From Streptomyces griseorubiginosus (GTDB lineage: Bacteria; Actinomycetota; Actinomycetes; Streptomycetales; Streptomycetaceae), in the NCBI RefSeq assembly GCF_001514195.1, contig NZ_KQ948737.1, positions 310,001 through 374,000 of the forward strand: 64,000 nt of DNA, given 5' to 3'. Positions 8,640-50,219 of the stretch are shown here, piece by piece. Position 1 is the stretch's first letter. Each line of letters begins with the position of its first letter. A program made the translations under genes and the position numbers. The notes beneath the pieces are model-generated. The model was given only the letters and a program-made list of their open reading frames with translations, searched no databases and was not told the origin of the DNA.

Positions 8640-8653
8640 TTGTTGAAAGCGCT

Positions 8654-18517: not shown

Positions 18518-19390
18518 TCATCGCGCGGCCTGGGTGTCGTAGCGGTGGAAGCCCCGTCCCGACTTGCGGCCGAGCCGGCCCTCCTCGATCAGACGGTCCA
18601 GCAGGGGCGGGACGGCGTGGTGGGGGTCGCCGGTGCGGCGCTCCATCGTGCGCGCGACATCGGCGATGGTGTCGAGGCCGATGAGGTCGAGCACGGCGAG
18701 CGGGCCCATGGGGTGGCCGCAGCCGAGGGCCATGCCGCGGTCGATGTCCTCGGGGGTGGCCACGCCCGACTCGTACATGCGCACGGCGGAAAGCAGATAC
18801 GGGATGAGGAGCGCGTTGACGACGAAGCCGCAGCGGTCCTCGGCGCGGACGGTCTCCTTGCCCAGTACGTCGGTCACGAAGGTCTCGGCGTCCTGGGCGG
18901 TGCGGTCGCTGGTGTGCAGGGAGCGGATGACCTCGACCAGGGGCATGGCGGGCACCGGGTTGAAGAAGTGCAGGCCGATCACGTTGCCTGGCCTGCTGGT
19001 GGCGTTGCCGAGGTCTGTGATGGACAGACTGGAGGTCGTCGAGGCGAGCACGGCGTGGGGCTCCTCGACGGTCTTGGCGAGGGTGGTGAACAGGCGCAGC
19101 TTCGCCTCGCGGTCCTCGGGGACGGCCTCGATGACGAACTGACGATCTGCCAGCTCGTCGGTGTCGTGGCCGAATCGGGCGCGGGTCTCGGCGGCCGCCC
19201 GTTGCCGTTCGTCGAGGTGTCCCTTGGCGAGGGCGCGGTCGAGGAGCCGCAGGACCCGGGTGCGGGCGCGCTCGGCGGAGGCGGGCCCGGTGCCCAGGAC
19301 GTGGACGTCGAGTCCGCTGCGCAGGCACTCGGCGGCGATACCGGCGCCCATGGTGCCGCCCCCGACGACGCCGACCCGACGGGCGCTCAT
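18518..19390 (-). CDS. 3-hydroxyacyl-CoA (3-hydroxybutyryl-CoA) dehydrogenase
   Basis: This 290-residue protein has an N-terminal Rossmann fold, VGVVGGGTMGAGIAAECLRSG, and the catalytic HFFNPVPAMPLVEV (His141). The C-terminal dimer domain has DRCGFVVNALLIPYLLSAVRMYE and HPMGPLAVLDLIGLD. It interconverts 3-ketoacyl-CoA and 3-hydroxyacyl-CoA. Its start overlaps the KAS III stop by 4 bp (ATGA), so the two are translationally coupled. With KAS III and crotonyl-CoA carboxylase/reductase it gives most of a dedicated route to ethylmalonyl- or longer alkylmalonyl-CoA; the dehydratase step would come from elsewhere. Confidence 0.9.
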   Translation of the reverse strand: MSARRVGVVGGGTMGAGIAAECLRSGLDVHVLGTGPASAERARTRVLRLLDRALAKGHLDERQRAAAETRARFGHDTDELADRQFVIEAVPEDREAKLRLFTTLAKTVEEPHAVLASTTSSLSITDLGNATSRPGNVIGLHFFNPVPAMPLVEVIRSLHTSDRTAQDAETFVTDVLGKETVRAEDRCGFVVNALLIPYLLSAVRMYESGVATPEDIDRGMALGCGHPMGPLAVLDLIGLDTIADVARTMERRTGDPHHAVPPLLDRLIEEGRLGRKSGRGFHRYDTQAAR

Positions 19391-20536: not shown

Positions 20537-21892
20537 TCATCGGACGGCTGCCGGGGTGAACGGGCGCAGCGGATTGAGGGTGTCCTCGCCGATACGGGCG
20601 CGCAGTTCGGGTGCGGTGACACCGAGGCCGGGCTCGGGGGCCAGGCACAGGACGCCGACCTTGCCGATGTGCTGGTTGAGCTGGACGCGCCGGGTGGCCT
20701 CGGCGACCTCGGCCAGCGGGTGCACCTCGGAGACGACCGGGGCGATCTGGCCGCGCTCGAACAGGCGGGCGCACTCGACCATTTCCTGGAGGTTGGCGAT
20801 ATGGCTGCCGATGATCCGCTTCAGCTTCATCCACAGGTAGCGGTTGTCGAACTCGTGGTGGTATCCGGTGCTGGACCCGCAGGTGACCACGGCGCCGCCG
20901 CGTCGGACCACGAACACGGAGATGCCGAAGGTGGCGCGTCCCACGTGCTCGAAGGCGATGTGCGGGTCCGCCCCCAGCTCGCTCCGGATGATCGCGCCGA
21001 GCCGTTTGCCGGCCCTGATGGCGAGTTCGGGATCGTTGCCGGTGTCGTCCGTGATGCCGATCTCCTCGCGGTTGATCACCACATCGCAGCCGAGTCTGCG
21101 GGCGATCTCCACCTTCGACTCGGAGCCGACGACGCCCACGGCGATCCCGCCGCCGTTCTTCACCAACTGGGCGGCATACGCGCCCAGTCCGCCGGACGCG
21201 CCCCAGATCAGCACGATGTCGCCCTGCTTCATCCGGGCGCCCCGGTCGCTGACGAGCATCCGGTAGGCCGTGCCGCCGCAGACGGGGATGCTCGCACCCT
21301 CCTCCCAGGTCAAGTGGGGCGGTTTGGAGACGAGTTGGCTGGCCCGGGCGACGGCGTAGTGGGCGAGACCGCCGTAGTTGGTCTCGAAGCCCCACGCGAG
21401 CTGGTGCTCGCTGAGCATCCCGTCGGACTGGGTGGCAGGTTCCTGGTCGTCGACGTGGGCCGGGCTGACGATCACGTGGTCGCCGACGCGCCAGCGGCGC
21501 ACTCCGGTGCCCACGCGCACGATGACGCCGGAGCCGTCCGAGCCGAGGACGTGGAAGGGCTGGTCGTGCCGGGCCGCCCAACCGCCCTGACGGCCGTAGT
21601 GGCGCAGGAAGCGGAAGGTGGACAGGGGCTCGAACTTGGCGGACCAGACGGTGTTGTAGTTGACGGAGCTGGCCATGACCGCGATGAGCACCTCGTCGGG
21701 TGCCAGCTCGGGCATCGGGACCTCACCCACCCGCAGGGTGCGCCGGACGTCCTTGTCGGCGCCCTCGGGGCAGTCACGGAAGACGTCCTCGTCCTCGACC
21801 CGCAGGTGAGCAGCGGTGAAGTGGCGGGGCAGCGGGGCGCGTTGGAGTTCTTCGGGGGAGGCCCCGGACAGCACGGCATCGGACAGCGACAT
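20537..21892 (-). CDS. ccr: Crotonyl-CoA carboxylase/reductase (alkylmalonyl-CoA synthesis)
   Basis: This 451-residue medium-chain reductase is close to the Ccr family throughout: APDEVLIAVMASSVNYNTVWSAKFEPLSTFRFL, FHVLGSDGSGVIVRVG, NYGGLAHYAVARASQLVSKP and the NADPH loop IWGASGGLGAYAAQL. It then has AFEHVGRATFGISVFVVRRGGAVVTCGSSTGY and NLQEMVECARLF. Ccr enzymes reductively carboxylate 2-enoyl-CoA, giving ethylmalonyl-CoA from crotonyl-CoA or longer alkylmalonyl-CoAs. I chose ATG 21892 (GAGG about 7 nt upstream; N-terminus MSLSDAVLSG fits the family) over GTG 21910. Neighbouring KAS III and dehydrogenase genes and the unusual AT motifs of modules 3 and 5 support a precursor role. Chain-length preference cannot be read safely. 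Confidence 0.93.
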   Translation of the reverse strand: MSLSDAVLSGASPEELQRAPLPRHFTAAHLRVEDEDVFRDCPEGADKDVRRTLRVGEVPMPELAPDEVLIAVMASSVNYNTVWSAKFEPLSTFRFLRHYGRQGGWAARHDQPFHVLGSDGSGVIVRVGTGVRRWRVGDHVIVSPAHVDDQEPATQSDGMLSEHQLAWGFETNYGGLAHYAVARASQLVSKPPHLTWEEGASIPVCGGTAYRMLVSDRGARMKQGDIVLIWGASGGLGAYAAQLVKNGGGIAVGVVGSESKVEIARRLGCDVVINREEIGITDDTGNDPELAIRAGKRLGAIIRSELGADPHIAFEHVGRATFGISVFVVRRGGAVVTCGSSTGYHHEFDNRYLWMKLKRIIGSHIANLQEMVECARLFERGQIAPVVSEVHPLAEVAEATRRVQLNQHIGKVGVLCLAPEPGLGVTAPELRARIGEDTLNPLRPFTPAAVR

Positions 21893-21902
21893 CTCGGGCA
21901 CC

Positions 21903-23573
21903 TCATTCACCTTCGGGCGGTTCGATGGACAGCGCGTGCCGGAACACGTTGCGCGGGTCGTACGCAGCCTTGGCGCGCTGGAGCCGGGGGTAGTTGTCCT
22001 TGTAGTAGAAGGTCGACCACGGCACCCCCGACGTGTTCTGGGCGGGATCGGCCATGTCGGCGTCGACGTAGTTGATGTAGCAGCCGTCCCAGGTGCCGTC
22101 GGGCACAGGCACTCCCCCGGTGTCGGCGTAGACCTCGCGGTACATGCTCCGGACCCAGGAGATGTGCTGGTCGTCGGTGGCCGGGTCGACCCACCAGGCC
22201 TGGTACTGCATCTTGACGAACGAGTCGCGTTGCGGGATCGCGGTGGCGTCGGAGGCGACCGTGCCGATCTCTCCGCCGTAGGGGAAGAGGATCAGTGAGG
22301 CGCCCGGGTTGCTGTAGTCGGACGAGGTCAGATGGCGGTGGATGACCGCGGCCTGCTCGGTGGTGAAGTTGCCCTTGAGGTAGGCGGACCGGGCTTTGAC
22401 CCGGACGGCGGGGGCCGCGTAATTCGAGGTGGAGATGAAGCGGGTGGCCTGGCCCCAGGTGACCTTGGTGGGTGCGGCGGCCAGGCTGTCGCGGACGGCC
22501 TGGGCGGTGCCGGCGCCGATCGCGGTCAGGTGGTCGGCCAGGATCGCCTCGGCGTCGGGGGCGTCGGCGTCCACCTGGGTGATGAGGGTCAGGACGCCTG
22601 CCGCGATGTGGTTCAGGCCGAACAGGCTGGACAGTGCGTTCTCCGGCGCCCCGGGCGCGCTGTGGGCCTGCTGCCAGGCGCAGAAGTTGCGCAGCAGCCG
22701 CCCGAAGTCGGCCTCGTCGACGGAACTCCATGGGATGGCGACGATGTTGAGCAGGACGTGGGACGGCGGGGCGGGCAGCAGGGTGTCCGGATCGGTGCCG
22801 GTCGCGTCGGGACTGCGGAACCAATAGCGCGTCACCACACCGAAGTTGCCGCCGCCGCCTCCGGTGTGCGCCCACCACAGGTCGTGGTGCGGGTCGTTCG
22901 GATCGTTGGTCGCGACGACAGCCCTGGCCCGGCCGGCCGCGTCGACGACCACGACCTCCACGGCGTGCAGGTGGTCGACGACGAGGCCGAACTGGCGTGA
23001 CAGCAGCCCGTATCCGCCGCCGCAGGCGTGGCCGCCCATCCCCACCGAGTAGCACAGGCCACCGGGGAGGGTGACACCCCAGCCGCGGTAGAGGGTGTCG
23101 TACACGTTGAGGAGGATGGCGCCCGGCTCCACGCAGAAGGCGCGGCGGGACTCGTCGTAGAAGACCTTGTCCAGGGTCGACAGGTCGAGGACGGTCTCGA
23201 TCTCGGGGTTGTAGACGAAGTCCTCGAAGCAGCCGCCGCCGCTGCGCACCGAGAGCCGCTTGCCGTCGGTGACCGCCTCCTGGACGGCGGCGACGGCGTC
23301 CGCGGTGCTGCGGATCACCCGGATCTGCTCGGGCCGGCCGACCCAGCGTTTGTTGTAGCCGGTGGTCATGTCGTCGTAACGGCCGTCCTGCGGGGTGACG
23401 ACGATCGGGGCGCGTGTGCTGTGACCAGCGCTCGTGGTGCCCTTGCTGCTCGTGGTGTCCTCGGCGGTCGCGGCGTGTGCGGTGCCGCTCCCGCCGGCCG
23501 CCGCTGTCGTTCCTGTCACGGTCACCCCCGCGATCGCGTATTCGAGCAGTCTTCTGCGGTCCAGCTCCGGCAT
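21903..23573 (-). CDS. Exported FAD-linked oxidase (BBE/AknOx/TrdL type)
   Basis: This 556-residue protein has a twin-arginine signal (DRRRLLEYAIAG, hydrophobic core, AHA cleavage region), an FAD-binding domain (about residues 75-270) and a C-terminal berberine-bridge segment ending NYPRLQRAKAAYDPRNVFRHALSI. Relatives such as AknOx and TrdL oxidise sugar or polyketide alcohols and bind FAD through a His and a Cys. Here the Cys is present (Cys174 in GGLCYSVGMGGH), but the His position of RSGGHC is Gly114 (codon GGC). The 60-residue spacing to Cys174 equals that between the AknOx pair, so the alignment is secure. It may therefore hold FAD through Cys only. It probably acts as a late, possibly extracellular, oxidase. 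AGAGAGG supports ATG 23573. Confidence 0.88.
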   Translation of the reverse strand: MPELDRRRLLEYAIAGVTVTGTTAAAGGSGTAHAATAEDTTSSKGTTSAGHSTRAPIVVTPQDGRYDDMTTGYNKRWVGRPEQIRVIRSTADAVAAVQEAVTDGKRLSVRSGGGCFEDFVYNPEIETVLDLSTLDKVFYDESRRAFCVEPGAILLNVYDTLYRGWGVTLPGGLCYSVGMGGHACGGGYGLLSRQFGLVVDHLHAVEVVVVDAAGRARAVVATNDPNDPHHDLWWAHTGGGGGNFGVVTRYWFRSPDATGTDPDTLLPAPPSHVLLNIVAIPWSSVDEADFGRLLRNFCAWQQAHSAPGAPENALSSLFGLNHIAAGVLTLITQVDADAPDAEAILADHLTAIGAGTAQAVRDSLAAAPTKVTWGQATRFISTSNYAAPAVRVKARSAYLKGNFTTEQAAVIHRHLTSSDYSNPGASLILFPYGGEIGTVASDATAIPQRDSFVKMQYQAWWVDPATDDQHISWVRSMYREVYADTGGVPVPDGTWDGCYINYVDADMADPAQNTSGVPWSTFYYKDNYPRLQRAKAAYDPRNVFRHALSIEPPEGE

Positions 23574-23602: not shown

Positions 23603-24865
23603 TCAGCGACGCGGGCCGGCCACGGCGGGCATGCTGGTGATCGCGCTGACGAAGTTGCTGGTCACCCGGACCGGCTCACCGATCTCGAAGTCCGGTACAC
23701 GGCGCAGGAGTTCGCCGAGCAGCATGCGCAGTTCCATCCGGGCCAGGACGCTGCCGAGGCAGTGGTGCGGCCCGCCGCCGCCGAAGCTGATGTGCCGGTT
23801 GGGGGTGCGGGCGAGGTCGAGGGTGTTCGGGTCGGTGAAGACGCGTTCGTCGCGGTTGCCCGACGGGTAGAACAGGGCGACCTTGTCACCGGCGCTGATC
23901 TTCTGGCCGTTCAGCTCGGTGTCGCGGCTTGCGGTGCGGCGCAGAGTGAGGACGGGGGTCGCCCAGCGCAGCAGTTCCTCCACGGCCTTGCCGGAGCGGG
24001 CGTCGAAGTCGGCGGCGAGCAGGGCGCGTTGGGCGGGAAAGTCGGAGAGCGCCTTGCCGGCGTGGCTGATGGTCTGCCGGGGGGTGTCGAAGCCCGCGCC
24101 GATGAGCAGCAGGAAGAAGGCGCTGATCTCGGCGTCGGTCAGGCCCTCGCCGTCGACCCTGGCCTGCACGAGGTCGGTCATCACGTCGTCCTGCGGATCG
24201 GCGCGGCGGGCCTTGGCCATCTCCACGGCGGTGCCGGACACCAGGCCGACGACCTCGTTGACCAACTCGGCGCGGTCCTTGCCGAGTTTCTCCGCCTCGT
24301 CGCGGCTGGAGAGCATGATGCTGATCGCCTCGGTGAAGCGGTCGATCTCGGCCGTCTCCAGACCCAGCATGTAGGTCATCGTCCAGCGGGCCATGGGCAT
24401 CGACACCTTCGCGACGAAGTCGCATTCGCCGGCCGTCGCGAAGTCCTCGACGATGCGCTCGACTTCGGCAGCCATCGACGCGCGCATCTGCTCCATGCGG
24501 GCCGGGCTGAACGCGGACGAGACGAGACTGCGCAGCTTCAGATGGCGCGGTGCGTCCAGGGCGACGATCGACTGGGTCGCCTGGAGGATGTCGTCGGGCA
24601 GTTCCTCGAACTGCACGCCCTTGCTGGAGATGTAAAGGTCGGGTTGGCTGCTGACGGCGACGATGTCGGCGTGCCGGACCACGGCCCAGAATCCGTCGTC
24701 GGGCGGGGTGGGCAGCAGGCTTCCCTCGGGTGCCTTGTGCCAGGAGACCGGGCGGGTGTCGCGCAGGGTCCGGAAGGTGTCGTCCCAGGCGGCGGGGGGC
24801 TGCGACCAGAACTGGATGGACGATATGTCGGCGGTGTCGAACTGCCGGGACGCGGCGGTTGCCAA
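23603..24865 (-). CDS. Cytochrome P450 (first gene of the leftward operon)
   Basis: This 420-residue P450 has an I-helix LLLIGAGFDTPRQT, an ExxR motif in VEELLR, and a haem loop FGGGGPHHCLG with Cys369. It probably hydroxylates the polyketide or an intermediate. I start it at TTG 24865 because AGGAGG (24876-24871) sits 5 nt upstream and the protein then begins like related P450s (ATAASRQFDTADISS). The GTG at 24904 adds 13 residues but has no ribosome site and would leave only about 15 nt after the predicted transcription start. The heptamer-repeat promoter at 24926-24981 lies just upstream. Confidence 0.92.
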   Translation of the reverse strand: MATAASRQFDTADISSIQFWSQPPAAWDDTFRTLRDTRPVSWHKAPEGSLLPTPPDDGFWAVVRHADIVAVSSQPDLYISSKGVQFEELPDDILQATQSIVALDAPRHLKLRSLVSSAFSPARMEQMRASMAAEVERIVEDFATAGECDFVAKVSMPMARWTMTYMLGLETAEIDRFTEAISIMLSSRDEAEKLGKDRAELVNEVVGLVSGTAVEMAKARRADPQDDVMTDLVQARVDGEGLTDAEISAFFLLLIGAGFDTPRQTISHAGKALSDFPAQRALLAADFDARSGKAVEELLRWATPVLTLRRTASRDTELNGQKISAGDKVALFYPSGNRDERVFTDPNTLDLARTPNRHISFGGGGPHHCLGSVLARMELRMLLGELLRRVPDFEIGEPVRVTSNFVSAITSMPAVAGPRR

Positions 24866-24925: not shown

Positions 24926-24981
24926 AGCATGCGACGGGCCCCCTGCCGGGGCCTTGTCGGATCGCTTGCCGCTTCCTTGCG
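24926..24981 (-). promoter_or_regulatory. SARP-type promoter of the leftward P450-to-thioesterase operon
   Basis: On the minus strand four heptamers follow each other: CGCAAGG (24981-24975), GGCAAGC (24970-24964), GACAAGG (24958-24952) and GGCAGGG (24947-24941). Their starts are 11, 12 and 11 bp apart. Nine bases after the last comes CATGCT (24931-24926), a fair -10 hexamer. The same order, spacing and hexamer occur before the rightward PKS operon. SARP activators bind direct heptamer repeats at one-turn spacing just upstream of -10, so this is a strong candidate target of the adjacent regulator. Confidence 0.82.
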
Positions 24982-25132
24982 GCGGGGCGTTCGCCTGCTC
25001 GGGGGGCGCGGGCGCGCAGGCTGGTGCGGGCGCGCGGGCCGGTGCGGGCGCCTCCCTCGGGCGAGGTGCCCGGCGGTGCGGGCCCCTCCCCCGGGCGAAT
25101 GCGGCTTCGCGGCCGCCTCCTCAGGCAGCTGC

Positions 25133-27469
25133 TCAGGCAGAATGCGGCGGCGCGGGTGCCGGGACGCGGGCGCTGTTCGGCGTGCCTGGCGCGGCGAGGA
25201 GCCGGGTCGTCCGGCGGACGCGGTCCCGGCGCTGCTCCTGCTCACCGTGCGGCGCCGCGCGCCGTTGTCCCAGCGCCCGCGCCACGCTCTCGCGCAGCCG
25301 GGCGCGGTCGCAGCCGCTCAGTTCGCCGAGCAGGACCTCCTGGACGAGTTCGTCGTGGAAGGAGAGCAGAAAGGGGGGCTGCGCCGCACGACGGAGCAGC
25401 CCGCACCGGGTCGCCGTCCCGATGGCCGACTCCACGTCGGTGCGGGCGCCCATCACGTCGTCGACCAGGTCGAATGCAAAGGCGGAGCCGAGCGTGGAGC
25501 AGCAGCGCAGGACGTCGAGCACCGGCCCCGGCAGCCCCGCAAGGCGCCGTCCGAGTGCCTGCCGGACGCCGAGCGGCACGTCGGCGAGGGCGTTCTGGAC
25601 GGCCGTACGGTCCCCCAGCAGACCGGGGTCGCCGACGGCCGCGATGAACTGGTGCAGGAAGTACGGGTTGCCGCGGCTGCGGCCGTGCAGCAGCCCGAGC
25701 ACGTCGTCGGGCACGTCTGCGGCGGTGTGCCCCGCCACGAGTTCGCGGGTGTCCCAGGGGGACAGTCCCCCGAGCCGCACACTGCGAGTCCGTGAGTCCC
25801 CGAGTGCTTCCGCGACCGCGTTCCCGCCCATGAAGTCAGCGGCGACCGCGGTGTCGTCGGCGGTGACGACGATGCTCAGCGGTTCGCAGTGCAGCCGGGT
25901 GCGCAGCAGTCCGAGCAGTTCCAGGGAGGACTCGTCGGCCTGGTCGAGATCTTCGAGCACGACGACCAGGGGGTCGTCGGCGGCGAGCGAGAGCAGGGTC
26001 TCGCACATGGCGTCCTGGGTGAGGAAACGGGCGCGCGCCGAGGGAGCGTCGCTGTTCACCGTCCGCAGGCCCGACTCGGGGGTGAGGATCAGCGGGGCCA
26101 GCAGGCTGCCGAAGCGGGCCTCGGCCTTGCGGAACGCCTCAGGGCGTGAGACCGCGAGCTGCCGGAAGATCTGCGCCCACACCCAGTACGCGGGAACACC
26201 CTCACCTGCGGTACAGCGGCCCCAGACCACCTCCTGGAGCAACTCCTGCAACCCGCGGGCCAGTTCCTGCACCAACTCGGTCTTGCCGACCCCTAACTCC
26301 CCCAGCACGGCGGTCAGATGGCTGCCGCCTTCCAGGGCGTCGAGCACATGGCCACCGAGGACGGCTAGTTCACGGTCCCGGCCCACGAGGGCTCCCCGGC
26401 TCCGGGCGCCCCGGGGCGGGCGAAGTGTTCGGGAGCCGCTCCTGTCGACCGTGCCACCGCCGAACACAGGTCGGCGGGGCCTGCGGAGACGTCGTTCGGG
26501 CAGGGGCGTGGGAACGTCGGCCGAGGGGGCCGGTGCGGGTTCCGGGGGGTTCGCAGGCGTCTCGGCGGGTGGCGGTGAGGCCGGGGCCGCGCTGCGATCG
26601 GTTGTCACGCAGGATCCGGCCGACAGCGGCGGCTCGCTGACGGGGAGGCGCTGGTTCAGTATGTCGGAGTGCACGCGCTGGAGTTCGGCGCCCGGGTCGA
26701 CACCGAGTTCCTCGGCAAGGTGGCGGCGGGTCTGCTCGTAGAGGCGTAAGGACTCCGCTTGGCGCCCCAGGAGGTATAAGCCACTCATCAGGTGGCCCAC
26801 ACAGCGCTCGCGGGTCGGGTTGCGCTGCACTTCCGGGTACAGCGTGGTGACGACGGAGTCCGCCTCGCCGATGGCCAGGCAGGCACCGGCCCTTGTCTCG
26901 ACCGCGGTCAGCCGCAGTTGCTCCAGCCGTTCGTTCTCGTCGGCGATCGGCCCGTACGAGGTGAGCTCGAGATAGGGGTCGCCGCGCCACAGGGCGAGCG
27001 CCCGGGTGAGTTCGTCGCGGGCGCTGCGGAAGCGCTGGTGGGTCAGGTCGCGCCGGCCCCGGTCGACCAGGGTCTCGAAGCGGTGGACGTCCACGAGTTC
27101 GGGGTCGATCTCCAGGACGTAGCCCGGCGAGCGGTGGCGGACCCGGGCCTCGGCACGGCCCTGTTCACCGCCCGACGCCAGCGCGCGGCGCAGATGCGAC
27201 ACATAGGTCTGGAGTGTGGCGATGGGACGGCGGGGCGGCCGACCGGCCCACAGTTCGTCGACCAGCTGCCCGGTCGCGACGACGTTGCCGAGGCGCACCA
27301 GCAACAGGCCCAGCAGGGCGCGGTGACGCAGCGGCCCCAGCGGAAGGGAGCGTCCGGCGTGCAGTGCGGTCAGCGATCCGAAGACGCGCAACTCCCACGG
27401 CGGGATGCTCCCGGTCTCCTTCTCGCCGCTTGTCCGCTCCGGAGTCATACCCGTGAACACATCCGACAT
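25133..27469 (-). CDS. SARP-family pathway activator with AAA ATPase domain
   Basis: This 778-residue protein has an OmpR-like DNA-binding domain (about residues 25-110; LRVFGSLTALHAGRSLPLGPLRHRALLGLLL) and a BTAD domain (about 115-270; VDVHRFETLVDRGRRDL, LYLLGRQAESLRLYEQTRRHLAEELGVDPG). A Pro-rich linker is followed by an AAA domain with Walker A GELGVGKT and Walker B VVVLEDLDQADE. There is no LuxR-type C-terminus. SARPs activate antibiotic clusters through heptamer repeats. At least three TTA codons occur (residues 231, 241 and 392, the last inside Walker A), predicting dependence on the bldA tRNA. ATG 27469 follows AAAGGAAG. It lies between the two divergent operons it probably controls. 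Confidence 0.92.
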   Translation of the reverse strand: MSDVFTGMTPERTSGEKETGSIPPWELRVFGSLTALHAGRSLPLGPLRHRALLGLLLVRLGNVVATGQLVDELWAGRPPRRPIATLQTYVSHLRRALASGGEQGRAEARVRHRSPGYVLEIDPELVDVHRFETLVDRGRRDLTHQRFRSARDELTRALALWRGDPYLELTSYGPIADENERLEQLRLTAVETRAGACLAIGEADSVVTTLYPEVQRNPTRERCVGHLMSGLYLLGRQAESLRLYEQTRRHLAEELGVDPGAELQRVHSDILNQRLPVSEPPLSAGSCVTTDRSAAPASPPPAETPANPPEPAPAPSADVPTPLPERRLRRPRRPVFGGGTVDRSGSRTLRPPRGARSRGALVGRDRELAVLGGHVLDALEGGSHLTAVLGELGVGKTELVQELARGLQELLQEVVWGRCTAGEGVPAYWVWAQIFRQLAVSRPEAFRKAEARFGSLLAPLILTPESGLRTVNSDAPSARARFLTQDAMCETLLSLAADDPLVVVLEDLDQADESSLELLGLLRTRLHCEPLSIVVTADDTAVAADFMGGNAVAEALGDSRTRSVRLGGLSPWDTRELVAGHTAADVPDDVLGLLHGRSRGNPYFLHQFIAAVGDPGLLGDRTAVQNALADVPLGVRQALGRRLAGLPGPVLDVLRCCSTLGSAFAFDLVDDVMGARTDVESAIGTATRCGLLRRAAQPPFLLSFHDELVQEVLLGELSGCDRARLRESVARALGQRRAAPHGEQEQRRDRVRRTTRLLAAPGTPNSARVPAPAPPHSA

Positions 27470-27887
27470 GCGCTTCCTTTGGTCGCAGGAGGAGGCTGTT
27501 GAACAGAGCGGTTTCACACATCAGAAGGGATTACGAAGGATAGCTTTCGGCCACTCGCCCAAGAAGTGGTTGTCCGGCCCTCTACCGGTTCTTTCCCCGA
27601 TGTTTGCGCGGGAGTTTGCAAGTAACGAATCAACCGTCCGAACTCCTATTTTCATTCTCGGACTCAAGCCTCCGATCCCCCCGCCGACCACCTGGATACC
27701 GTGCTGCCGCGAGATCGTAGAACAGGCACTGTGCCGAAAATGTGACGCACCTCGAGACCGATTGCATTCAGCCACCACGTGTCTCGTTGCCGCCCTGGCA
27801 CTCCGTTCCGCGGACCGCCCCCTCCGACCAGTGGCGAAAAGAGAAGCCGGACAAGCCGACGTTCGGACTTCGACTATTCTCGGATTC
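27470..27887. promoter_or_regulatory. Divergent control region between the two regulators
   Basis: These 418 bp are visibly richer in A and T than the flanks and have no credible gene; the open frame through them lacks coding character. An imperfect repeat, ATTCTCGGAnTC, occurs at 27654-27665 and 27876-27887. No SGCAAGS heptamer array like those of the structural operons was found, so the regulators may not be autoregulated in that way. The hexamer TATTCT at 27875-27880 is annotated separately. Confidence 0.55.
27875..27880 (+). promoter_or_regulatory. Candidate -10 element of the AfsR-like gene (leaderless start)
   Basis: TATTCT fits the TAnnnT -10 consensus and ends 8 bp before GTG 27888, which has no ribosome binding site. 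A transcript starting 7-8 nt after the hexamer would begin at the GTG, so leaderless translation is suggested. No good -35 is visible, so an activator may be needed. Confidence 0.5.
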
Positions 27888-30812
27888 GTGTGGTTGACCG
27901 TAATGGGGCCCCTGCGGGCTTGGCATGACGACGAAGAACTCGACCTGGGGCCGGCCAAGCGGCAAGCCCTGCTCGCCCTGCTCCTGGTCCGGTCGGGTCA
28001 GCCGACGAGCCTGAGCACGATCATCGACGTCCTGTGGGGCGACGCACCACCGAGCAGCGCCGCGAACGTCGTCTACCGCCACGCCGCCGCCATCCGCAGA
28101 CTGCTGGAGAGCCAGTTCGGCACCCGCTCGGGCGCGGGCGCCGACAGGTCGTCCGCGACCCGACTGGTACGCGTCTCGGGCGGTTACCGACTGGACGCCT
28201 TCCCCACCACCCTCGACCTGCTGAGGTTCCGCGAACTGCGCGAGGCGGCCGAGGAGACGGCCGGCCCCGGCGCGACGACCGAGCGCCTCCGGCTGCTCAG
28301 CCGCGCGTTAGGCCTGTCCCGGGGCCCTACGGCTGCCGGGATCCCGCCGCACATCGCGCAGCACCCGTACTTCGTGGCGGTCGACAGCGAGTACCTGGCC
28401 GCGGTGAAGGATGCCGCGGCCCTCGCCACCACCCTCGGCGAACAGGCGTCCATTCTCGACATCCTCCAGCCCGCCGCCGCACAGCATCCGCTCGACGAGG
28501 TGCTCCAGGCACACCTCGTGCAGAGCCTCGCCTCGACCGGCCGCCAGGCCGAGGCACTCCAGGCCTACCACCAGGTCCGCACCCGCCTGGACGAACAGCT
28601 CGGCATCGCCCCCGGACCCGAACTCCAGTCCGTCTACCAGGAGATACTGCGCCGGGACACGCCAGGAGCACTCCATCCCGCCGCCGCCCCGCCCAAGCCA
28701 CCGCATCAGCACGCGGACCAACGGCCGCACCCCGTGCGACCCGCCCAACTCCCCCCGGATCTCACGGTTTTCGCGGGACGCACAGCCGAACTGGCCCGGC
28801 TGGACGAACTGTTCCCCGCCGACCTGGCCACCGAGACAGACACCGCACCCGACCGGGCACACCCCCGCCCTACCGTGGCGATCGGCGCCATCGTCGGCAT
28901 GGCAGGGGTCGGCAAGACCACGCTCGCCGTGCACTGGGCCCACCGCGTGGCCCACCGGTTTCCCGACGGGCAGCTGTATCTCAACATGCGCGGCTTCGAC
29001 CCAGGTGGCGCCCAGGTCACCCCCAGCGAGGCCCGACGGACCTTCCTCACCGCGCTCGGCGTCCCGGCCCGGGACATCCCGCCGGGCCAGGACGCCCAGC
29101 TCGGCCTGTACCGCAGCACCGCGGCCGGCCTCCGGCTGCTGATCGTGCTCGACAACGTTGCCGACTCCGACCACGTACGCCCGCTGCTGGCCGGCGCCCC
29201 AGGCACCCTCGTCCTCGTCACCAGCCGCGACCGGCTCAGCGGCCTCGTCGCCACCGACGGCGCCCACCCGCTGATGCTGACCGAGCTGAACCCGGACGAG
29301 GCCCGGCAGGCCCTCGTACGCCGCCTCGGCACCCGCAGGACCGACGCTGAACCCGCGGCCGTCGACGAGATCGCCGCGCACTGCGCCCGGCTGCCCCTCG
29401 CGCTGGCCATCGCCGGCGCCCAGGCCGCACTGTTCCCGGATCGCCGACTCACCTCCATAGCAAGCGAGTTCCGCGGGCGGCCCGCCGCCCTCGACGCGTT
29501 CACCGACACCGACCCCAACGCCGACATCCGCAGCGTCTTCTCCTGGTCCTACCGCAAGCTCGCCCCCGCCACGGCCAGGATGTTCCGGCTGCTGGCCCTC
29601 CACCCCGGGCCCGTCATCGCCGCGAGCACCGCCGCCAGCCTGGCCGGGACAGCCCTGGAACCGACCCGCGAGCTCCTCTCCGAGCTCGTCCGCGCCCATC
29701 TGCTGACCGAGCAGGCCCCGGACCTGTACGTACTGCACGACCTGCTCGGCGCGTACGCCCGGGAACTCCTGCGCACCACCGACCCCGACGACCGACGCGA
29801 GCTGTCCGTGCAGCGCATGCTGGACCACTACGTCCACACCGCTCTCGCGGCGGCGACACGGCTGGCCCCGCACCGGACCGAAGCATGGCCGCTGCCGCCC
29901 CTCCAGCCAGGCACGACCGTGCAGACGCCACCCGACCACGAGAGGGCCGCCGACTGGCTGGACCAGCAGCTGCTGCCCGTCCTGCTCCAGGTCGTAGACC
30001 AGGCCGCGACACACGGACTGCACGCCCACGTCTGCCAGTTGGGGCTGGCCCTGGAACGCCACCTGGACCGGCTCGCCCATTGGGAGCAGCAACTGGCACT
30101 CCAGCGGATCTGTCTGCTGAGCGCCGAGACACAGGGCGACCCGTCCGCCGCCGCACACGCCCACCGGGCACTGGGCTTCGCCCACGGGAGGCTCGGGCAG
30201 CACGACGAGGCACGCACCCATCTCCTGCGCGCGCTCGGCCTGTTCACCGCGGCGGACGACCCACGCGGCCAGGCCGCAACCCATCGCTCCCTCGCCTTCC
30301 GCGCCAACGCCGCCGGGCGACACGACCAGGCCCTCGACCACTACGACCGCGCACTCCCGCTGTACCGGCGCGCCGGGGACACCGTCGGCCAGGGCAGTGT
30401 GTTCAACGAGATCGGCTGGACCCTGATCCTCAAGAGCGACCACCGCGCGGCACTCGACCACTGCGCCCGCGCCATCGAACTGTGCAACAGCGCGGGCGAC
30501 TTGAGCGGCGAGGCAGCCGCGCTGGACAGTCTCGGCTACGCCCACCACCACCTGGGCGAGTACGACCACGCGCTGAAGCACTACCAGCGGGCGCTGACCG
30601 TCTACCGCGAGCTGAAGGACCGCTACCTGGAGGCGGACGTCCTCGTCCACATCGGGCAGGCCCACTCCGCCCGCGGCGAGAGCGACCTGGCTGCAAGGTC
30701 GTGGGAACGCGCACTGCGCATCCTCGACACCCTGCGGCATCCCGACGCGAGCCTGGTGCGCCGCCAGCTCGACGAGGTGCGAGCGATCGCGTCGCGTCCC
30801 GCGCCGCACTGA
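27888..30812 (+). CDS. AfsR-type regulator (BTAD, NB-ARC, TPR)
   Basis: This 974-residue protein has an N-terminal winged helix (LTVMGPLRAWHDDEELDLGPAKRQALLALLL), BTAD (about residues 95-250), an NB-ARC ATPase with P-loop GMAGVGKTTL (about residue 340), LLIVLDNVAD and LPLALAIAG, and a C-terminal TPR array (GDPSAAAHAHRALGFAHGRL and repeats to about 960). AfsR-like proteins integrate signals into secondary-metabolism activation. GTG 27888 gives the normal family N-terminus; ATG 27903 is the alternative. Codon 141 (28308-28310) is TTA. It is divergent from the SARP gene and directly upstream of the rightward operon. Confidence 0.9.
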   Translation: MWLTVMGPLRAWHDDEELDLGPAKRQALLALLLVRSGQPTSLSTIIDVLWGDAPPSSAANVVYRHAAAIRRLLESQFGTRSGAGADRSSATRLVRVSGGYRLDAFPTTLDLLRFRELREAAEETAGPGATTERLRLLSRALGLSRGPTAAGIPPHIAQHPYFVAVDSEYLAAVKDAAALATTLGEQASILDILQPAAAQHPLDEVLQAHLVQSLASTGRQAEALQAYHQVRTRLDEQLGIAPGPELQSVYQEILRRDTPGALHPAAAPPKPPHQHADQRPHPVRPAQLPPDLTVFAGRTAELARLDELFPADLATETDTAPDRAHPRPTVAIGAIVGMAGVGKTTLAVHWAHRVAHRFPDGQLYLNMRGFDPGGAQVTPSEARRTFLTALGVPARDIPPGQDAQLGLYRSTAAGLRLLIVLDNVADSDHVRPLLAGAPGTLVLVTSRDRLSGLVATDGAHPLMLTELNPDEARQALVRRLGTRRTDAEPAAVDEIAAHCARLPLALAIAGAQAALFPDRRLTSIASEFRGRPAALDAFTDTDPNADIRSVFSWSYRKLAPATARMFRLLALHPGPVIAASTAASLAGTALEPTRELLSELVRAHLLTEQAPDLYVLHDLLGAYARELLRTTDPDDRRELSVQRMLDHYVHTALAAATRLAPHRTEAWPLPPLQPGTTVQTPPDHERAADWLDQQLLPVLLQVVDQAATHGLHAHVCQLGLALERHLDRLAHWEQQLALQRICLLSAETQGDPSAAAHAHRALGFAHGRLGQHDEARTHLLRALGLFTAADDPRGQAATHRSLAFRANAAGRHDQALDHYDRALPLYRRAGDTVGQGSVFNEIGWTLILKSDHRAALDHCARAIELCNSAGDLSGEAAALDSLGYAHHHLGEYDHALKHYQRALTVYRELKDRYLEADVLVHIGQAHSARGESDLAARSWERALRILDTLRHPDASLVRRQLDEVRAIASRPAPH

Positions 30813-30819
30813 CCCACCG

Positions 30820-30898
30820 CGCAAGCCGTCCGCAAGGTCTTGCGCCAGCGGACCGCAAGCCGCCCCGCGAGCCCCCGGCAAGGACTGAAGCCCATGCT
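30820..30898 (+). promoter_or_regulatory. SARP-type promoter of the rightward P450-PKS operon
   Basis: Six heptamers run along the plus strand: CGCAAGC (30820), CGCAAGG (30831), CGCCAGC (30843), CGCAAGC (30854), CGCGAGC (30866) and GGCAAGG (30877). Their starts are 11, 12, 11, 12 and 11 bp apart. Nine bases later lies CATGCT (30893-30898). The last four repeats, the 9-bp gap and the hexamer match the leftward operon promoter exactly in layout. It begins 7 bp after the AfsR-like stop codon and ends 39 bp before the P450 start. It is the most likely activator site for the PKS genes. Confidence 0.85.
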
Positions 30899-30937: not shown

Positions 30938-32158
30938 GTGCAGGAAATCCAGGTGACCGAGGAGCTGGACCTCAGCTTCGTCCAGACGCCCCACGAAGTG
31001 CTGAAGCGGCTCCGCGAAGCCGGGCCCGCCGTGAAGGTGATGCTGCCGAACGGCTCACTGGTCTGGATCGTGACCCGCTACGAGGAGGTCAGGCAGGCGC
31101 TCAGCGAGACCCGGCTCAGCAAGTCCTTCAAGGGCCTCAACGAGCTGATGGCCCGGCACACCAAGGAGGGCATGGCGCCCAAGCAGTACGACGAGGCCCT
31201 CGTCGGCCACATGCTGGCCAGCGACCCGCCGGACCACACCCGGATGCGCAGGCTGGTCAACAAGGCCTTCACCCCGCGGCGGGTCGAGGGCATGCGCCCC
31301 ATGCTGGAAGAGCTGACCAGCAGTCTGCTCGACGAGATGGACAAGCACGACGAGATCGACCTCCTGGAGGCGCTCGCCTTCCCCGTGCCGATGGAGCTGC
31401 TGTGCACCCTCCTCGGCGTCCCGCAGGCCGAGCGGCTCGCCTTCGGCCGGTACGCCAGCGTCGTCCTCGCCGACCTCGCCCCCGAGGGATACGAGGAGGC
31501 CACCACGGCGATGCGCGAGTACCTGGTGAAACTCATCCAGGTCAAGCGCGACAACCCCGGCGACGACTTGCTCAGCGCGCTGATCGCGGCCCGCGACGAG
31601 GACGACAAGCTCAGCGAGGGCGAACTGCTCGCCACCATCTACCTGATGTTCTCGGCGGGCACCGAGACCGCCGTCAACCTGATCGGCAACGGCGTGCTGG
31701 CCCTGCTGACACACCCCGAGCAGCTCGCCGCGCTGCGCGCGGACAAGTCGCTGCTGCCGCAGGCCGTCGAGGAGTTCCTGCGCTTCGACGGACCGGTCAA
31801 CCTCGCCACCTTCCGGTTCACGGTGGAACCGGTGACGCTCGGCGATGTGACCATCCCGGTCGGCGAGGTGGTCATGGTGTCGCTGATGGCGGCGAACCGT
31901 GACCCGGAGCGGTTCGACAACCCCGAACTGCTCGACATCACACGGCCGATCGGCGGCCAGATGACCTTCGGGCACGGCATCCACTACTGCATGGGCGCAC
32001 CGCTTGCCCGGCTGGAGGCCGAGATCGCCCTCGGTCAGCTCCTCGACCGCTTCCCCGACCTGACGCTCGCGGTCGACCCCGCCGAGTTGAAGTGGCGGCT
32101 GAGCACCGTCACCCACGGCCTGGACCGGCTGCCTGTGAGGCCGCACGGCGCCGCCTGA
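30938..32158 (+). CDS. Cytochrome P450 (first gene of the rightward operon)
   Basis: This 406-residue P450 of the bacterial macrolide type has a C-helix [18 protein letters not shown], an I-helix [14 protein letters not shown] (Glu-Thr in place of Asp-Thr), VEEFLR and a haem loop [15 protein letters not shown] with Cys351. It probably oxidises the polyketide product; position and order relative to the other P450 are unknown. GTG 30938 has AGGAGGG at 30924-30930. It is separated from pksA by 106 bp containing a strong hairpin. Confidence 0.93.
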
Positions 32159-32170
32159 CCGCGCACCAGT

Positions 32171-32216
32171 GCACGGCCCGGAGCGAGCTCCGACGAGGAC
32201 CTCGCTCCGGCCGTGC
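32171..32216 (+). terminator. Hairpin between the P450 gene and pksA
   Basis: Arms 32171-32187 and 32201-32216 pair over 16 bp with one bulged base; the loop is 13 nt. There is no T tract. As the genes look like one operon, it may act as a partial terminator, processing site or mRNA stabiliser, lowering PKS expression relative to the P450. Confidence 0.6.
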
Positions 32217-32264
32217 GGTGCGGTGGCCCACAAACGCGATCCGCGAAGGGGAGGAGTGTCCGCT

Positions 32265-35200
32265 ATGGCAGAGGTGACGGTGACGGACTCGACGACGGGC
32301 GCGTGCGGAGACGAGCCCATCGCGGTGACGGGCTCCATGACGGACACGGACGGCCCTGAGCCGATCGCGGTGACGGGCTCCATGACGGACACGGACGACC
32401 CTGAGCCGATCGCGGTGATCGGGATCGCCTGCCGGCTTCCTGGCGCCCCGGATCCGTCCGCCTTCTGGCAGCTCCTGCGCGAAGGCACGGACGCCATCGG
32501 CGTACCCGCCGCGGACCGCCACCCTGCGCAGGACGGAAACGAGCGCCCCGGCGGCTGGCTCGACCGTGTCGACGGCTTCGACGCGGCCTTCTTCGGTGTC
32601 TCCCCGCGCGAGGCACTGGCCATGGACCCCCAGCAGCGACTCGCCCTCGAACTGGGCTGGGAAGCACTGGAGGACGCCGGAATCGCCCCCGACTCGGTCG
32701 GAGGCACCCCCGCAGGCGTCTATGTCGGCGCGATCTCCGACGACTACGCGACCCTGCTGCGCCGTGGCGGCCCACAAGGCATCACCCGGCACATGTTCAC
32801 CGGCACCCAGCGAGGCGTGATCGCCAACCGGCTCTCCTACTCGCTGGGGCTGCGGGGGCCGAGCATGACGGTGGACTGCGGCCAGTCCTCTTCACTGGTC
32901 GCAGTCCATCTGGCCGCCGAGAGCCTGCGCCGGGGCGAGTCGAACCTCGTGCTCGCAGGTGGCGTCCACCTCAATCTCGTCCCCGAGAGCACGGTCGCCG
33001 TCGAACGCTTCGGTGGCCTGTCCCCCGACGCCCGCTGCTTCACCTTCGACGCCCGCGCCAACGGTTTCGTCCGCGGTGAGGGCGGCGCCCTCGTCGTCCT
33101 CAAGCCCCTCACCCGGGCCCTTGCCGACGGCGACCGTGTGTACTGCGTCATCCACGGTTCTGCCGTCAACCACGACGGCGCGGGCGAAAGCCTTGCGGTC
33201 CCCAACGCCGAAGCGCAGCACGAGGTCATCGACGCGGCGCTCGCCGCCGCGGGCGTCCGCCCCGACGCCGTGCAGTACGTCGAACTGCACGGCACCGGCA
33301 CACCGGTCGGCGACCCGATCGAGGCGGCGGCACTGGGCGCTGCGTTCGGCACCGGGCCCAACAGGCCGGTCCCCCTCGCGGTCGGCTCGGCCAAGACGAA
33401 CGTGGGACATCTGGAGGGCGCTGCCGGCGTGGTCGGCCTCGTCAAGACCGCCCTGTCCCTGCACCACCGCGAACTCCCCGCGAGCCTCAACTTCGAGACC
33501 CCCAACCCGGCCATCCCTCTCGACGACCTCAACCTGCGGGTACAGACCGCGAGCGGGCCCTGGCCCCAGGACGACCGCCCGCTGCTCGCCGGCGTATCGG
33601 CGTTCGGCGTCGGCGGCACCAACGCCCACCTCGTCCTGGGCGAAGCCCCCACCCCCACCCTGACGACCGACATCGCGACCGCCCAGACGTCCGGGCCGGT
33701 GCCGCTGGTGGTGTCGGCGGGCAGTACGGCCGCGCTGGCCGCCTACGGAGCGCGGCTCGCCGAGCGTCTGGAAGCCGATGCCGAGCTCCACCTGACCGAC
33801 ATGGCCCATGCGCTGGTCACGACGCGGGCCTTGCTGCCCCACCGGGCAGTGGTGGTCGCCGAGGACCGGGACAGCGCGATCGACGGGCTGCAAGCGCTGG
33901 CCAAGGGGACCCCGCATCCGCAGGTGATCGCCGGAGCGGGGCCAGCGCCGGCGACCGGGCGTGGTCCGGTGTTCGTCTTCCCAGGTCAGGGCTCGCAGTG
34001 GGCCGGCATGGGCGCCGACCTCTACGCAGACAGTCCGGTCTTCCGCGACGCGCTGGACGCCTGCGCCGCCGCCCTCGACCCCCTCACCGGCTGGTCACTG
34101 ATCGACACCCTCACCAGAGACGACGACACCTGGCTGAACCACGTCGAGATGGTCCAGCCCGCCCTCTTCGCCGTCATGACCAGCCTCGCCCGCCTCTGGA
34201 TCTCCCACGACATCCAACCCGCCGCCGTCATCGGCCACTCCCAGGGTGAGATCGCCGCCGCGCACATCGCGGGCATCCTCACCCTCCAGGACGCCGCCCG
34301 CATCGTCACCGTCCGCTCCGCCGCCATGCGCCAACTGGCCGGACACGGCGTCATGGCCACCGTCAGCAAAGACGCCCCCTGGGTCCTCCAACACGCCGAC
34401 GACCGGGTCACCATCGCCGCCCACAACTCCCCCACCACCACCGTCATCAGCACCACCCCCGACACCCTCGACCACCTCACCACCCAGTGGGCTTCCCAGG
34501 GCGTCCGAGTACGCCGGATCAACGTCGACTACGCCAGCCACTCCCCCCAAGTCGACGCCCACCAACACCACATCACCACCGCCCTCGCCGACATCCAGCC
34601 ACACCAAGCGATCATCCCGATGGTCTCCACCGTGACCGGACAGCCGGTTGAGGGCACGGAACTGACCGCCGACTACTGGTACACCAACCTCCGCCACCCC
34701 GTCCGCTTCCACCAAGCACTCACCCACCTGATCAACGAGGGCCACCACACCACCATCGAAACCAGCCCCCACCCCGTCCTCACCCCCGCCATCGACGAAA
34801 CAGCAGAAGCGACCGGGACAGCCGTCAACGCGCTGCACACGCTCCGCCGCAACACCTCGACGCCTTTCGCCACTGTGCTGGCCCACGCCCACACCACCGG
34901 CACCACCCCCAACTGGACGGCACTGTTCCCCACCCCCCAGCACCACACCCCACTCCCCACCTACCCCTTCCAACGCCGCAGCTACTGGCCGGAGTTCATC
35001 GAATCCGCGAGTCCCACCGCGCTGATCACCGAGAGCGAGGAGCAGGAGGAGGACGGCACGAGTTTTGCCCCGACCCCGCAGCTCTCGGAACTACTGAACG
35101 TCGTGCTGAATGAATGCGCCCGGGTGTTGGGACACTCATCCGCTTCCGAAGTCCCGGAACATCTGCCGTTCAAGGAGCTGGGCTTCGACTCCTTCGCGGG

Positions 35201-38200
35201 TGTGGAGCTGTGCAAGCGGCTCTCCGCTCTGCTCGGCCACCGGGTGCCGGTCAACGCCACCTACAACCACCCGAGTCCGGCCGACCTGGCCGCGTTCCTG
35301 CGGGACGAGTTGGCCGGGGTCTCGGGCGAAGGGGCACCGGTCACCGGTGCGGACCAGACCCCGGTGGACGACGATCCGATCGTCATCGTCGGCATGGCGT
35401 GCCGGTTCCCGGGCGGGGTCCGGACTCCGGACGACCTGTGGCACCTGCTGCTGGAGGAACGGGACGCGATCACGGAGTTCCCCGAGGACCGCGGCTGGAA
35501 CATCGAGGAGTTGTACGACCCCGATCCGACCCACCCGGGCACCTCCTACGTACGCCGGGGCGGCTTCCTCGACGACATCGCCGGCTTCGACGCGTCGCTC
35601 TTCGGCATAGCGCCCCGCGAGGCGCTGGCGATGGACCCGCATCAGCGCCTTCTTCTGGAGACGTCCTGGGAGGCCTTCGAGCGGGCCGGCATCGACCCCG
35701 GCTCACTGCGCGGCAGCCGTACGGGGGTGTTCGTCGGGACCAACGAGCAGGACTACGCCACTTACACCGCGCCCCAACAGGCGCAGGGCAGCGAAGGGTT
35801 CCTGTTGACCGGGCACGCGGCGAGCGTGGCTTCCGGGCGGATCGCCTACGTGCTGGGTCTGGAGGGTCCGGCGCTGACGGTCGACACCGCCTGCTCGTCG
35901 TCCCTCGTCGCTCTGCACCTGGCGACGCAGTCCCTGCGCAACGGTGAATGCGATCTGGCCGTCGCCGGTGGCGCGAGCGTCATGTCGACGCCGGGGATGT
36001 TCCTCGAGTTCTCCCGTCAGGGCGGGCTGTCGCCCGACGGGCGCTGCAAGGCGTTCGACGAGAGCGCGGACGGCACCGGCTGGTCCGAGGGCGTCGGAAC
36101 CCTGCTGATCGAGCGTCTCTCCGACGCGCGGCGCAACGGACACCCCGTGCTCGCCGTCGTCCGAGGTTCCGCGATCAACCAGGACGGTGCCTCCAACGGC
36201 CTCACCGCCCCCAACGGGCGTTCCCAGGCACGCCTCATCCGAACTGCCCTGGCCAACGCCGGTCTCACCCCCACCGACGTCGACAGCGTCGAGGCCCACG
36301 GCACCGGAACCCGGCTCGGCGACCCCATCGAAGCCCAGGCCCTCCTCACCACCTACGGTCAGCAGCGCGCGACCGAGGCCCCTTTGTGGCTCGGCTCCAT
36401 CAAGTCGAACATCGGCCACACCCAGGCCGCCGCCGGCATCGCCGGGGTCATCAAGACGGTCCTCGCCCTGCAACATGGCGTGCTCCCGCGCACCTTGCAC
36501 CTGACTGAAGCGACTTCCCACGTCGATTGGTCCTCGGGCGCGGTCCGGCTCCTCGCGGAGGCACGCAATTGGCCCGACACCGACCGGGTCCGACGGGCCG
36601 CCGTCTCGGCGTTCGGCATCAGCGGTACGAACGCTCACGTGATCCTTGAGCAGGCCCATGTGCCTGTACAGGCCGAGGAGTCCGTCCCGTCGGGTCGGCC
36701 GGTGCCGCTGGTCATTTCGGCGGGGAGCCCGGACGCGCTGGCGGCGGCGGGGGGCCGGCTGGCCCAGTGGCTGGATGACCGAACGGAGTTGCACCTCCCG
36801 CATGTTGCCCACGCGCTGGTCACTTCTCGGGCCTTGCTGCCGCACCGGGCAGTGGTGGTCGCCGAGGACCGGGACAGCGCGATCGACGGACTGCAAGCGC
36901 TGGCCAAGGACCGGCCCGCGCCGCACGTCATCCCCAGCACAGGACCTGTCACACCAGCCCGCCGTGGTCCGGTGTTCGTGTTCCCAGGTCAGGGCTCGCA
37001 GTGGGCCGGCATGGGCGCCGACCTCTACGCCACCAGCCCGGTCTTCCGTGACGCGCTGGACGCCTGCGCCGCCGCTCTCGACCCGCTCACAGGCTGGTCA
37101 CTGATCGACACCCTCACCAGAGACGACGACACCTGGCTGAACCACGTCGAGATGGTCCAGCCCGCCCTCTTCGCCGTCATGACCAGCCTCGCCCGCCTCT
37201 GGATCGCCCACGACATCCAACCCACCGCCGTCATCGGCCACTCCCAAGGCGAAATAGCCGCCGCGCACATCGCCGGCATCCTCACCCTCCACGACGCCGC
37301 CCGCATCGTCACCGTCCGCTCCACCGCCATGCGCCAACTGGCCGGACACGGCGTCATGGCCACCGTCAGCCAAAGTGCTCAATGGGTGAGCGACCACATC
37401 GACGACCGGGTCACCATCGCCGCCCACAACTCCCCCACCACCACCGTCATCAGCACCACACCCGACACCCTCGACGAGCTCACCACCCAGTGGGCTTCCC
37501 AGGGCGTCCGAGTACGCCGGATCAACGTCGACTACGCCAGCCACTCCCCCCAAGTCGACGCCCACCAACACCACATCACCACCGCCCTCGCCGACATCCA
37601 GCCACACCCCGCCACCATCCCCATGATCTCCACCGTCACAGGACAGCCAGTCGAAGGCCCCGAACTCGACGCCGACTACTGGTACACCAACCTCCGCCAC
37701 CCCGTCCGCTTCCACCAAGCACTCACCCACCTGATCAACGAAGGCCACCACACCACCATCGAGACCAGCCCCCACCCCGTCCTCACCCCCGCCATCGAAG
37801 AAACCTCCGAAGCCACAGGCACACCCCTCACCGCCCTCCACACCCTCCGCCGCAACACCACCGCCTCCTTCACCACCGCCCTCGCCCACGCCCACACCAC
37901 CGGCACCACCCCCAACTGGACGGCACTGCTCCCCACCCCCCACCACCACACCCCACTCCCCACCTACCCCTTCCAACACGAGCACTACTGGCTGGACCGC
38001 CCCCAACTGGCCGCCGCCGTGCAACCCGGTGTCGATGTCGCTGGGCACCCTTTGCTCAGCGCGGCTGTCCGGCTCGCGGACGGCGGGGTCGTCCTCACCG
38101 GCGGGTTGGGGCCCGCTGCGCCCGAATGGGTCGCGGACCACGCCGTCATGGGGTCGGTCCTGTTGCCGGGTACGGCTTTCGTCGAGCTGGCGGTGCGCGC

Positions 38201-50162: not shown

Positions 50163-50219
50163 GTCACCCGGCCGCCCTGCCCCAGCCCCAGCCCCACCGC
50201 ACCTCAGGAGATGTTTGCA

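Follow-up and report, generated by a model that had tools for sequence, protein, structure and literature searches.

We analysed a stretch of 64,000 nucleotides from Streptomyces griseorubiginosus (assembly GCF_001514195.1, contig NZ_KQ948737.1, positions 310,001 to 374,000; hereafter the window), in which two genes for Streptomyces antibiotic regulatory proteins (SARPs), here called SARP-L and SARP-R, lie between a leftward and a rightward predicted operon of a polyketide cluster. Each operon is preceded by an array of direct heptamer repeats that ends 9 bp before a CATGCT hexamer. Both arrays are probably operators of SARP-L, which would bind them as dimers next to CATGCT and serve as the one activator of both operons. 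The elements of the two promoters are the following:

30820 to 30883, plus strand: right array of six heptamers (CGCAAGC, CGCAAGG, CGCCAGC, CGCAAGC, CGCGAGC, GGCAAGG)
30820, 30831, 30843, 30854, 30866 and 30877, plus strand: starts of the right heptamers, in steps of 11-12-11-12-11
30893 to 30898, plus strand: CATGCT, putative -10 element of the right operon, 9 bp past the last heptamer and identical in three species
24941 to 24981, minus strand: left array of four heptamers (CGCAAGG, GGCAAGC, GACAAGG, GGCAGGG)
24981, 24970, 24958 and 24947, minus strand: starts of the left heptamers, in steps of 11-12-11
24926 to 24931, minus strand (read 24931 to 24926): CATGCT, putative -10 element of the left operon, 9 bp past the last heptamer

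Two repeat arrays in three related clusters

The ten heptamers were first described in the initial annotation, and re-reading the window returned the same letters and coordinates, with both 9-bp gaps and both hexamers in place. We compared the arrays to chance expectation using a heptamer matrix that drew only on orthologous promoters in two further species, requiring four repeats and an NANNNT hexamer. The left array scored 31.4 and the right array 29.2; among 100 dinucleotide-shuffled versions of the window the best score was 15.8, or 22.2 when the hexamer was not required. A matrix of the left heptamers from three species recovered the right array at 23.7, and one of the right heptamers recovered the left array at 25.0. 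Both arrays are far above what chance would produce.

A search for relatives of SARP-R yielded 24 loci, two of which carry the same cluster: one in Streptomyces sp. P3 (L014) and one in S. shenzhenensis (L021). Across the three clusters, the cytochrome P450s are 88–97% identical and the SARPs 47–80%, depending on the segment. The P450 and SARP genes of L014 appeared in tblastn as overlapping pieces, probably through assembly errors. The six right repeats, the four left repeats, the 9-bp gap and CATGCT are kept in all six promoters, and in each of the six pairwise comparisons the heptamers are more conserved than the spacers. Between the right promoters of the window and S. shenzhenensis, for example, 34 of 42 heptamer positions are identical versus 14 of 30 spacer positions. 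The weakest comparison, that of the left promoters of the same two clusters, was marginal (25/28 vs. 14/21, p-value 0.057).

Spacing was less uniform than first proposed. The 11-12-11 steps are found in the window and in L014; in S. shenzhenensis the left array has steps of 11-11-11 and the right array 11-11-11-12-11, which rules out exact 11-12-11 spacing as a conserved requirement. When repeats were paired counting from the hexamer, the step within pairs was 11 bp in 15 of 15 cases, the phasing known from SARP promoters, whose repeats lie one helical turn or two apart, while the step between pairs was 12 bp in seven of nine cases and 11 bp otherwise. Fisher's test gave a p-value of 1e-4 for this difference, a figure that overstates the significance, the sequences being related. 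The pattern suggests tiled activator dimers, each occupying a module of 22–23 bp. Steps of 12 bp are not new as such, since heptamer spacers of 4–15 nt are given in the relevant part of a review (PMC10972967). The distance from the 3' repeat to the putative -10 is 9 bp in all six promoters, and this figure shifts by about 1 depending on how the repeats are framed. In passages on known SARP promoters, the 3' repeat lies about 8 bp from the -10 and the steps are 11 bp (PMC10936776, PMC4393881). The earlier description of SARP-type repeats just upstream of a -10-like hexamer thus agrees with known geometry and holds in three species. In the open-licence literature, queried with phrases for these features only, the query for SARP operators of four to six heptamers listed no SARP paper, and that for 11- and 12-bp steps found none.

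The arrays are also singular within genomes. We constructed a 67-column promoter profile (R1), whose training set includes both window promoters, and scanned the 9.87-Mb genome of the strain with it. The two promoters scored 62.6 and 58.0 bits; among the 150 of 12430 first-look candidates that were scored, the next best site reached 19.2. The genomes to which L014 and L021 belong gave a similar picture, with 53.8–60.8 bits for the two promoters and 20.5 and 18.2 for the runners-up. In 199 genomes of the genus, scanned with stricter filters and 26 scored candidates per genome, no other R1 match exceeded 24.2 bits. The existence of many equally good arrays at unrelated promoters, named at the outset as an observation that would undo the proposal, is rejected by these scans: nothing came close.

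Three weak other matches (22.3–24.2 bits) were recorded in the 199 genomes. One (L066) resembles coding sequence by eye. Another (L072) and the runner-up of the strain's own genome (L073) differ from each other mainly at third codon positions, so we read both as the same coding sequence, presumably an acyl-CoA dehydrogenase gene. At a further locus (L071, 8242–8299, minus strand), GGCAGGA-N9-CATGCT occurs with irregularly spaced GGCAAG-like repeats upstream of a glycosyltransferase gene. No protein match to SARP-L or SARP-R was found in the 16 kb inspected at each of these four loci. The cluster itself is rare: searched at E 1e-150, P450-R had a match in one of the 392 genomes sampled from the genus and P450-L in one of 150 relatives, in both cases the strain's own genome.

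The predicted reader of the arrays

The two regulators between the operons are the following:

25133 to 27469, minus strand: SARP-L, of SARP-LAL type, 778 aa (Trans_reg_C, BTAD and AAA_16), predicted reader of both arrays
27888 to 30812, plus strand: SARP-R, a large AfsR-like SARP, 974 aa (BTAD, NB-ARC and TPR), predicted upstream activator, with a probable GTG start at 27888

SARP-L has the SARP-LAL plan, with an N-terminal SARP domain and a C-terminal ATPase half of the guanylate cyclase/LAL kind; this plan lacks a LuxR helix-turn-helix, and no GerE domain was detected at E 0.001. Its C-terminal half matches a kinase/cyclase fusion model below the cut-off of that model. SARP-R follows the AfsR-type plan of SARP, NB-ARC and TPR domains, yet it scored 424 bits against the AfsR equivalog model, far under the cut-off of 1430, and is thus not AfsR itself. 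A TANTCT hexamer stands 7 nt before the GTG at 27888 in the alignment of three species (window 27870–27890), and the SARP-R transcript may be leaderless. The genome as a whole contains 13 BTAD domain matches.

The initial annotation assigned the arrays to "the adjacent SARP". This wording is ambiguous, as two SARP genes lie between the operons and adjoin them; the evidence favours the SARP-LAL protein. The exact published PimR operator occurs in two of 392 genomes (L052 and L053), each time with a SARP-LAL gene alongside. The SARP domain of SARP-L is 50.5% and 54.7% identical to those of the two PimR-type proteins, and the ATPase part 42.7%; for SARP-R, the SARP domains are 33–34% identical. 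AfsR is described as contacting bases through T88 and R92 (PMC10936776). At the corresponding positions SARP-L has Thr/His and the PimR-type proteins have Ser/His; SARP-R, with Arg/Ala, has neither AfsR contact residue. These comparisons suggest that SARP-L is a better candidate reader of both arrays than SARP-R.

To relate the reading residue to the array without choosing relatives by their operator, we sampled plasmids. At a threshold of 1e-30, five organisms were represented by 20 records (16 from S. clavuligerus), and one record or locus was examined per organism. In Streptomyces sp. NBC_01237 (L074, Ser/His), the gap beside the SARP gene contains GGCAAGC-11-GGCAAGG-12-GACAAGG, and GGCCAGC-11-CGCAAGG-N9-CAGCAT lies before the acyltransferase domain of a divergent frame. 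As delimited mechanically, with a provisional start, this frame overlaps the array. None of 200 random sequences was as good on the three repeats or on the closing pair. The SARP gene flanking this array (8582–8670, minus strand) carries no annotation in the plasmid table. No array was found beside the SARP gene in the other four loci: L075 (Ser/Arg, SARP-LAL type), L076 (Thr/Lys, a small SARP), L077 and L078 (both Val/Gln). For these, 33, 72, 128 and 43 of 200 random sequences, respectively, were as good on three repeats, and 109, 140, nine and 114 on the closing pair; the nine for L077 reflect a lone pair at 16920 that falls in an annotated gene remote from the SARP gene. In this small sample, an array was thus present in the one plasmid relative with His and in none of the four with another residue. 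SARP-L itself may act on CGGCAAG-type heptamers: arrays lie beside its gene, and it has reading residues in common with PimR-type proteins. L075, another SARP-LAL-like relative with Arg in place of His, lacks a nearby array.

The two PimR-type loci also provided an anchor for the hexamer. On their 22 kb, R1 gave four weak matches (6.5–11.6 bits), all four in the regulator gap. CGCAAGG stands exactly 9 bp before CACGAT in L052 and before TACGGT in L053, and the L052 promoter reads CCAGGA-N19-CACGAT. The published pimM promoter of S. natalensis has a -35 CCAGGA, 19 nt and a -10 CACAAT, with a start 148 bp before the ATG by 5' rapid amplification of cDNA ends (RACE) (PMC3367932, promoter description). 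Prediction from the hexamer puts the start in L052 and L053 about 152 bp upstream of the ATG of a PAS-LuxR (pimM-like) gene. A -10 assigned from a mapped start in a homologous promoter thus corresponds to a hexamer as far past the last heptamer (9 bp) as CATGCT is here. The comparison was read in the homologous loci L052 and L053 and, for S. natalensis, from the primer ends CCAGGACCC (PMC5930380) and the published CACAAT. In L052 (5569–5689) and L053 (5637–5757), both on the minus strand, GGCAAG-like heptamers adjoin the -10, with a fourth repeat 12 bp past the main triplet; L052 has eight such heptamers in two groups. This layout calls into question the published view of a pimM -35 free of overlap with the repeats of PimR.

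In the mechanism we favour, the SARP domains of SARP-L would bind as side-by-side dimers, with one monomer per heptamer: two dimers would occupy the left array and three the right. Whichever dimer lies closest to CATGCT would replace a -35 element and, as AfsR does at afsS, hold sigma region 4 over a poor promoter. The two halves of the polyketide cluster would then be switched on jointly by one activator.

A third box and competing explanations

A further SARP-type box was found before SARP-L:

27714 to 27746, minus strand: GTCACAT-N4-GGCACAG-N9-TACGAT (hexamer 27719 to 27714)

It belongs to a block in the gap between the SARP genes that is kept even in the diverged S. shenzhenensis cluster (26 of 40 positions identical vs. 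8–18 in most surrounding windows). In three species the first heptamer and the hexamer are identical, the second heptamer reads GRCACAR, and the 9 bp are variable. A profile trained on the three species found one strong site per genome (49.0–54.2 bits), and the sole other match had 13.3. The GNCACA pair was not among the repeats listed by a repeat search over the gap between the SARP genes. Having the same geometry with other letters, the third box suggests itself as a candidate site for SARP-R. SARP-R would then perhaps activate the SARP-L gene through a two-repeat box of the common geometry and a different heptamer. We propose a relay from SARP-R to SARP-L to both operons on the grounds that a conserved box repeats the geometry of the arrays; that SARP-R turns on SARP-L in this way seems to us a little short of an even chance. 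More tentative still is a general scheme, which we consider rather doubtful, of the 6-kb regulatory core as a two-tier relay with a common geometry (heptamer pairs at 11-bp steps, a 9-bp gap and the -10) and a separate heptamer code for each tier (GNCACA for SARP-R, GGCAAG for SARP-L), in which 22–23-bp dimer modules would set operon strength by copy number with inter-module spacing free by 1 bp. The common geometry would also explain pimM, described as an exception among SARP targets in that its repeats leave the -35 free.

The relay has a substantial competitor, to which we give somewhat less than even weight and which concerns the relay only: the third box may be a PHO-box-like or other OmpR-family site, or may serve autoregulation by SARP-L. 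PhoP is described as competing with AfsR for the direct repeats at afsS (PMC10972967, in the section concerned), and GGCACAG matches GGCAAGG at five of seven letters. GTCACAT, however, matches it at only three of seven, CACA is kept in three species, and the 9-bp distance to the hexamer is the geometry of both arrays. As to the arrays themselves, it is unlikely that the AfsR-like SARP-R reads them and SARP-L has another role. The stop codon of SARP-R lies 7 bp short of the right array, and SARP-R is a SARP, but identity of its SARP domain to PimR-type proteins is just 33–34% and it has Arg/Ala where the proteins beside GGCAAG arrays have Ser/His. Still less probable is the action of both SARPs, or of a mixed SARP-L/SARP-R complex, on both arrays. 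It would explain the repeats beyond the known two or three, given the four and six present here, and the two genes are retained together in three clusters; their reading residues are very different, however, and a distinct second type of box is conserved upstream of SARP-L. We regard it as extremely improbable that the arrays arose by chance or are non-functional remnants of repeats. Partial heptamers are frequent in GC-rich sequence and unrelated profile matches of 22–24 bits exist in other genomes, but the shuffles, the three-species conservation and the score gap down to the next site all speak against it.

Several points weigh against SARP-L as the reader and the relay above it. The three clusters are related, so that conservation is partly shared descent. 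Only four proteins with His were compared, two of which (L052 and L053) had been found through their operator. Of the plasmid relatives, L074 is the nearest overall as well, which leaves residue and kinship confounded. For PimR, the cited experiments give an optimum of three repeats, a fourth bringing no substantial gain in production (PMC5930380), and six may therefore be more than the mechanism needs. The third box lies 245 bp from the SARP-L start codon, which implies a long leader, and the link between SARP-R and the GNCACA box is one of geometry and position only. Among SARP-R relatives beyond the two orthologs, the reading helices that could be read differ from that of SARP-R, which makes these relatives unsuited to a check of the GNCACA box.

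Gene setting and relation to known systems

The genes of the two predicted operons are the following:

30938 to 32158, plus strand: P450-R, first gene of the right operon, GTG start, ribosome site AGGAGG
32169 to 62079, plus strand: type I modular polyketide synthase (PKS) frames (32169 to 50162, 50211 to 58817 and 58759 to 62079)
23603 to 24865, minus strand: P450-L, first gene of the left operon, probable TTG start after AGGAGGAG
21903 to 23573, minus strand: BBE-type FAD oxidase, left operon
20537 to 21910, minus strand: crotonyl-CoA carboxylase/reductase (TIGR01751), left operon
18518 to 20362, minus strand: open frame whose C-terminal half holds a 3-hydroxybutyryl-CoA dehydrogenase, left operon; true start probably further in
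17722 to 18501, minus strand: thioesterase, left operon

The operons had been called divergent, and they do point outward. They do not share an intergenic gap, as the two SARP genes lie in between (25133–27469 on the minus and 27888–30812 on the plus strand). Beyond the PKS frames, outside the window, lies another zinc-dehydrogenase frame (L069, 6437–7801) that shares its Pfam domains with the crotonyl-CoA carboxylase/reductase. Five Rfam ASpks matches on the minus strand (41556–41630, 46035–46109, 51300–51374, 54327–54401 and 59953–60027) are antisense to the PKS frames; they are probably not RNA genes but reflect conserved coding sequence of the PKS.

Among the closest known systems, judged from the cited passages here and below, is PimR/pimM of S. 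natalensis, with which the cluster shares the CGGCAAG heptamer, 4-bp spacers and a SARP-LAL regulator (PMC5930380, PMC3367932), together with the hexamer 9 bp past CGCAAGG seen in the two PimR-type loci. PimR acts via the PAS-LuxR gene pimM at one promoter, whereas here biosynthetic operons directly follow two such promoters, whose arrays of four and six repeats adjoin the hexamer; no PAS-LuxR gene was found among the frames of the window cluster that were scanned. The SARP-LAL proteins SanG (nikkomycin) and PolR (polyoxin) use the same heptamer, overlapping the -35, and control their targets directly (PMC5930380, PMC10972967), with two heptamers each as opposed to four and six. In polyoxin synthesis, the large NB-ARC-TPR SARP PolY activates the SARP-LAL gene polR (PMC10972967); the cascade proposed here is a prediction from the conserved box before SARP-L. 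OtcR, a single SARP, acts on five oxy promoters with common repeats, 11-bp steps and 8 bp to the -10 (PMC4393881), but with two or three repeats of other letters. At afsS, resolved by cryo-electron microscopy, direct repeats overlap the -35 of a poor promoter, and the SARP domain of AfsR binds two 11-bp repeats as a side-by-side dimer together with sigma region 4 (PMC10936776); the heptamer is another one and the dimer single.

Control of several cluster promoters by one SARP (OtcR) and the heptamer of PimR, SanG and PolR are therefore already known from these sources. Four and six heptamers are unusual against the operators listed in the review, which have two or three (PMC10972967). What is new is the pattern of dimer modules, the occurrence of two types of box within one cluster, and a reading of the pimM promoter as an ordinary one.

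A rare polyketide cluster probably has its on-switch in SARP-L and the arrays; if this is true, more expression of SARP-L should suffice to wake the cluster. The cluster offers a clean test case for SARP promoters built from dimer modules and for the link of one reading residue (His or not) to the heptamer. The pimM promoter, reported as an odd case among SARP targets, may follow the ordinary geometry.

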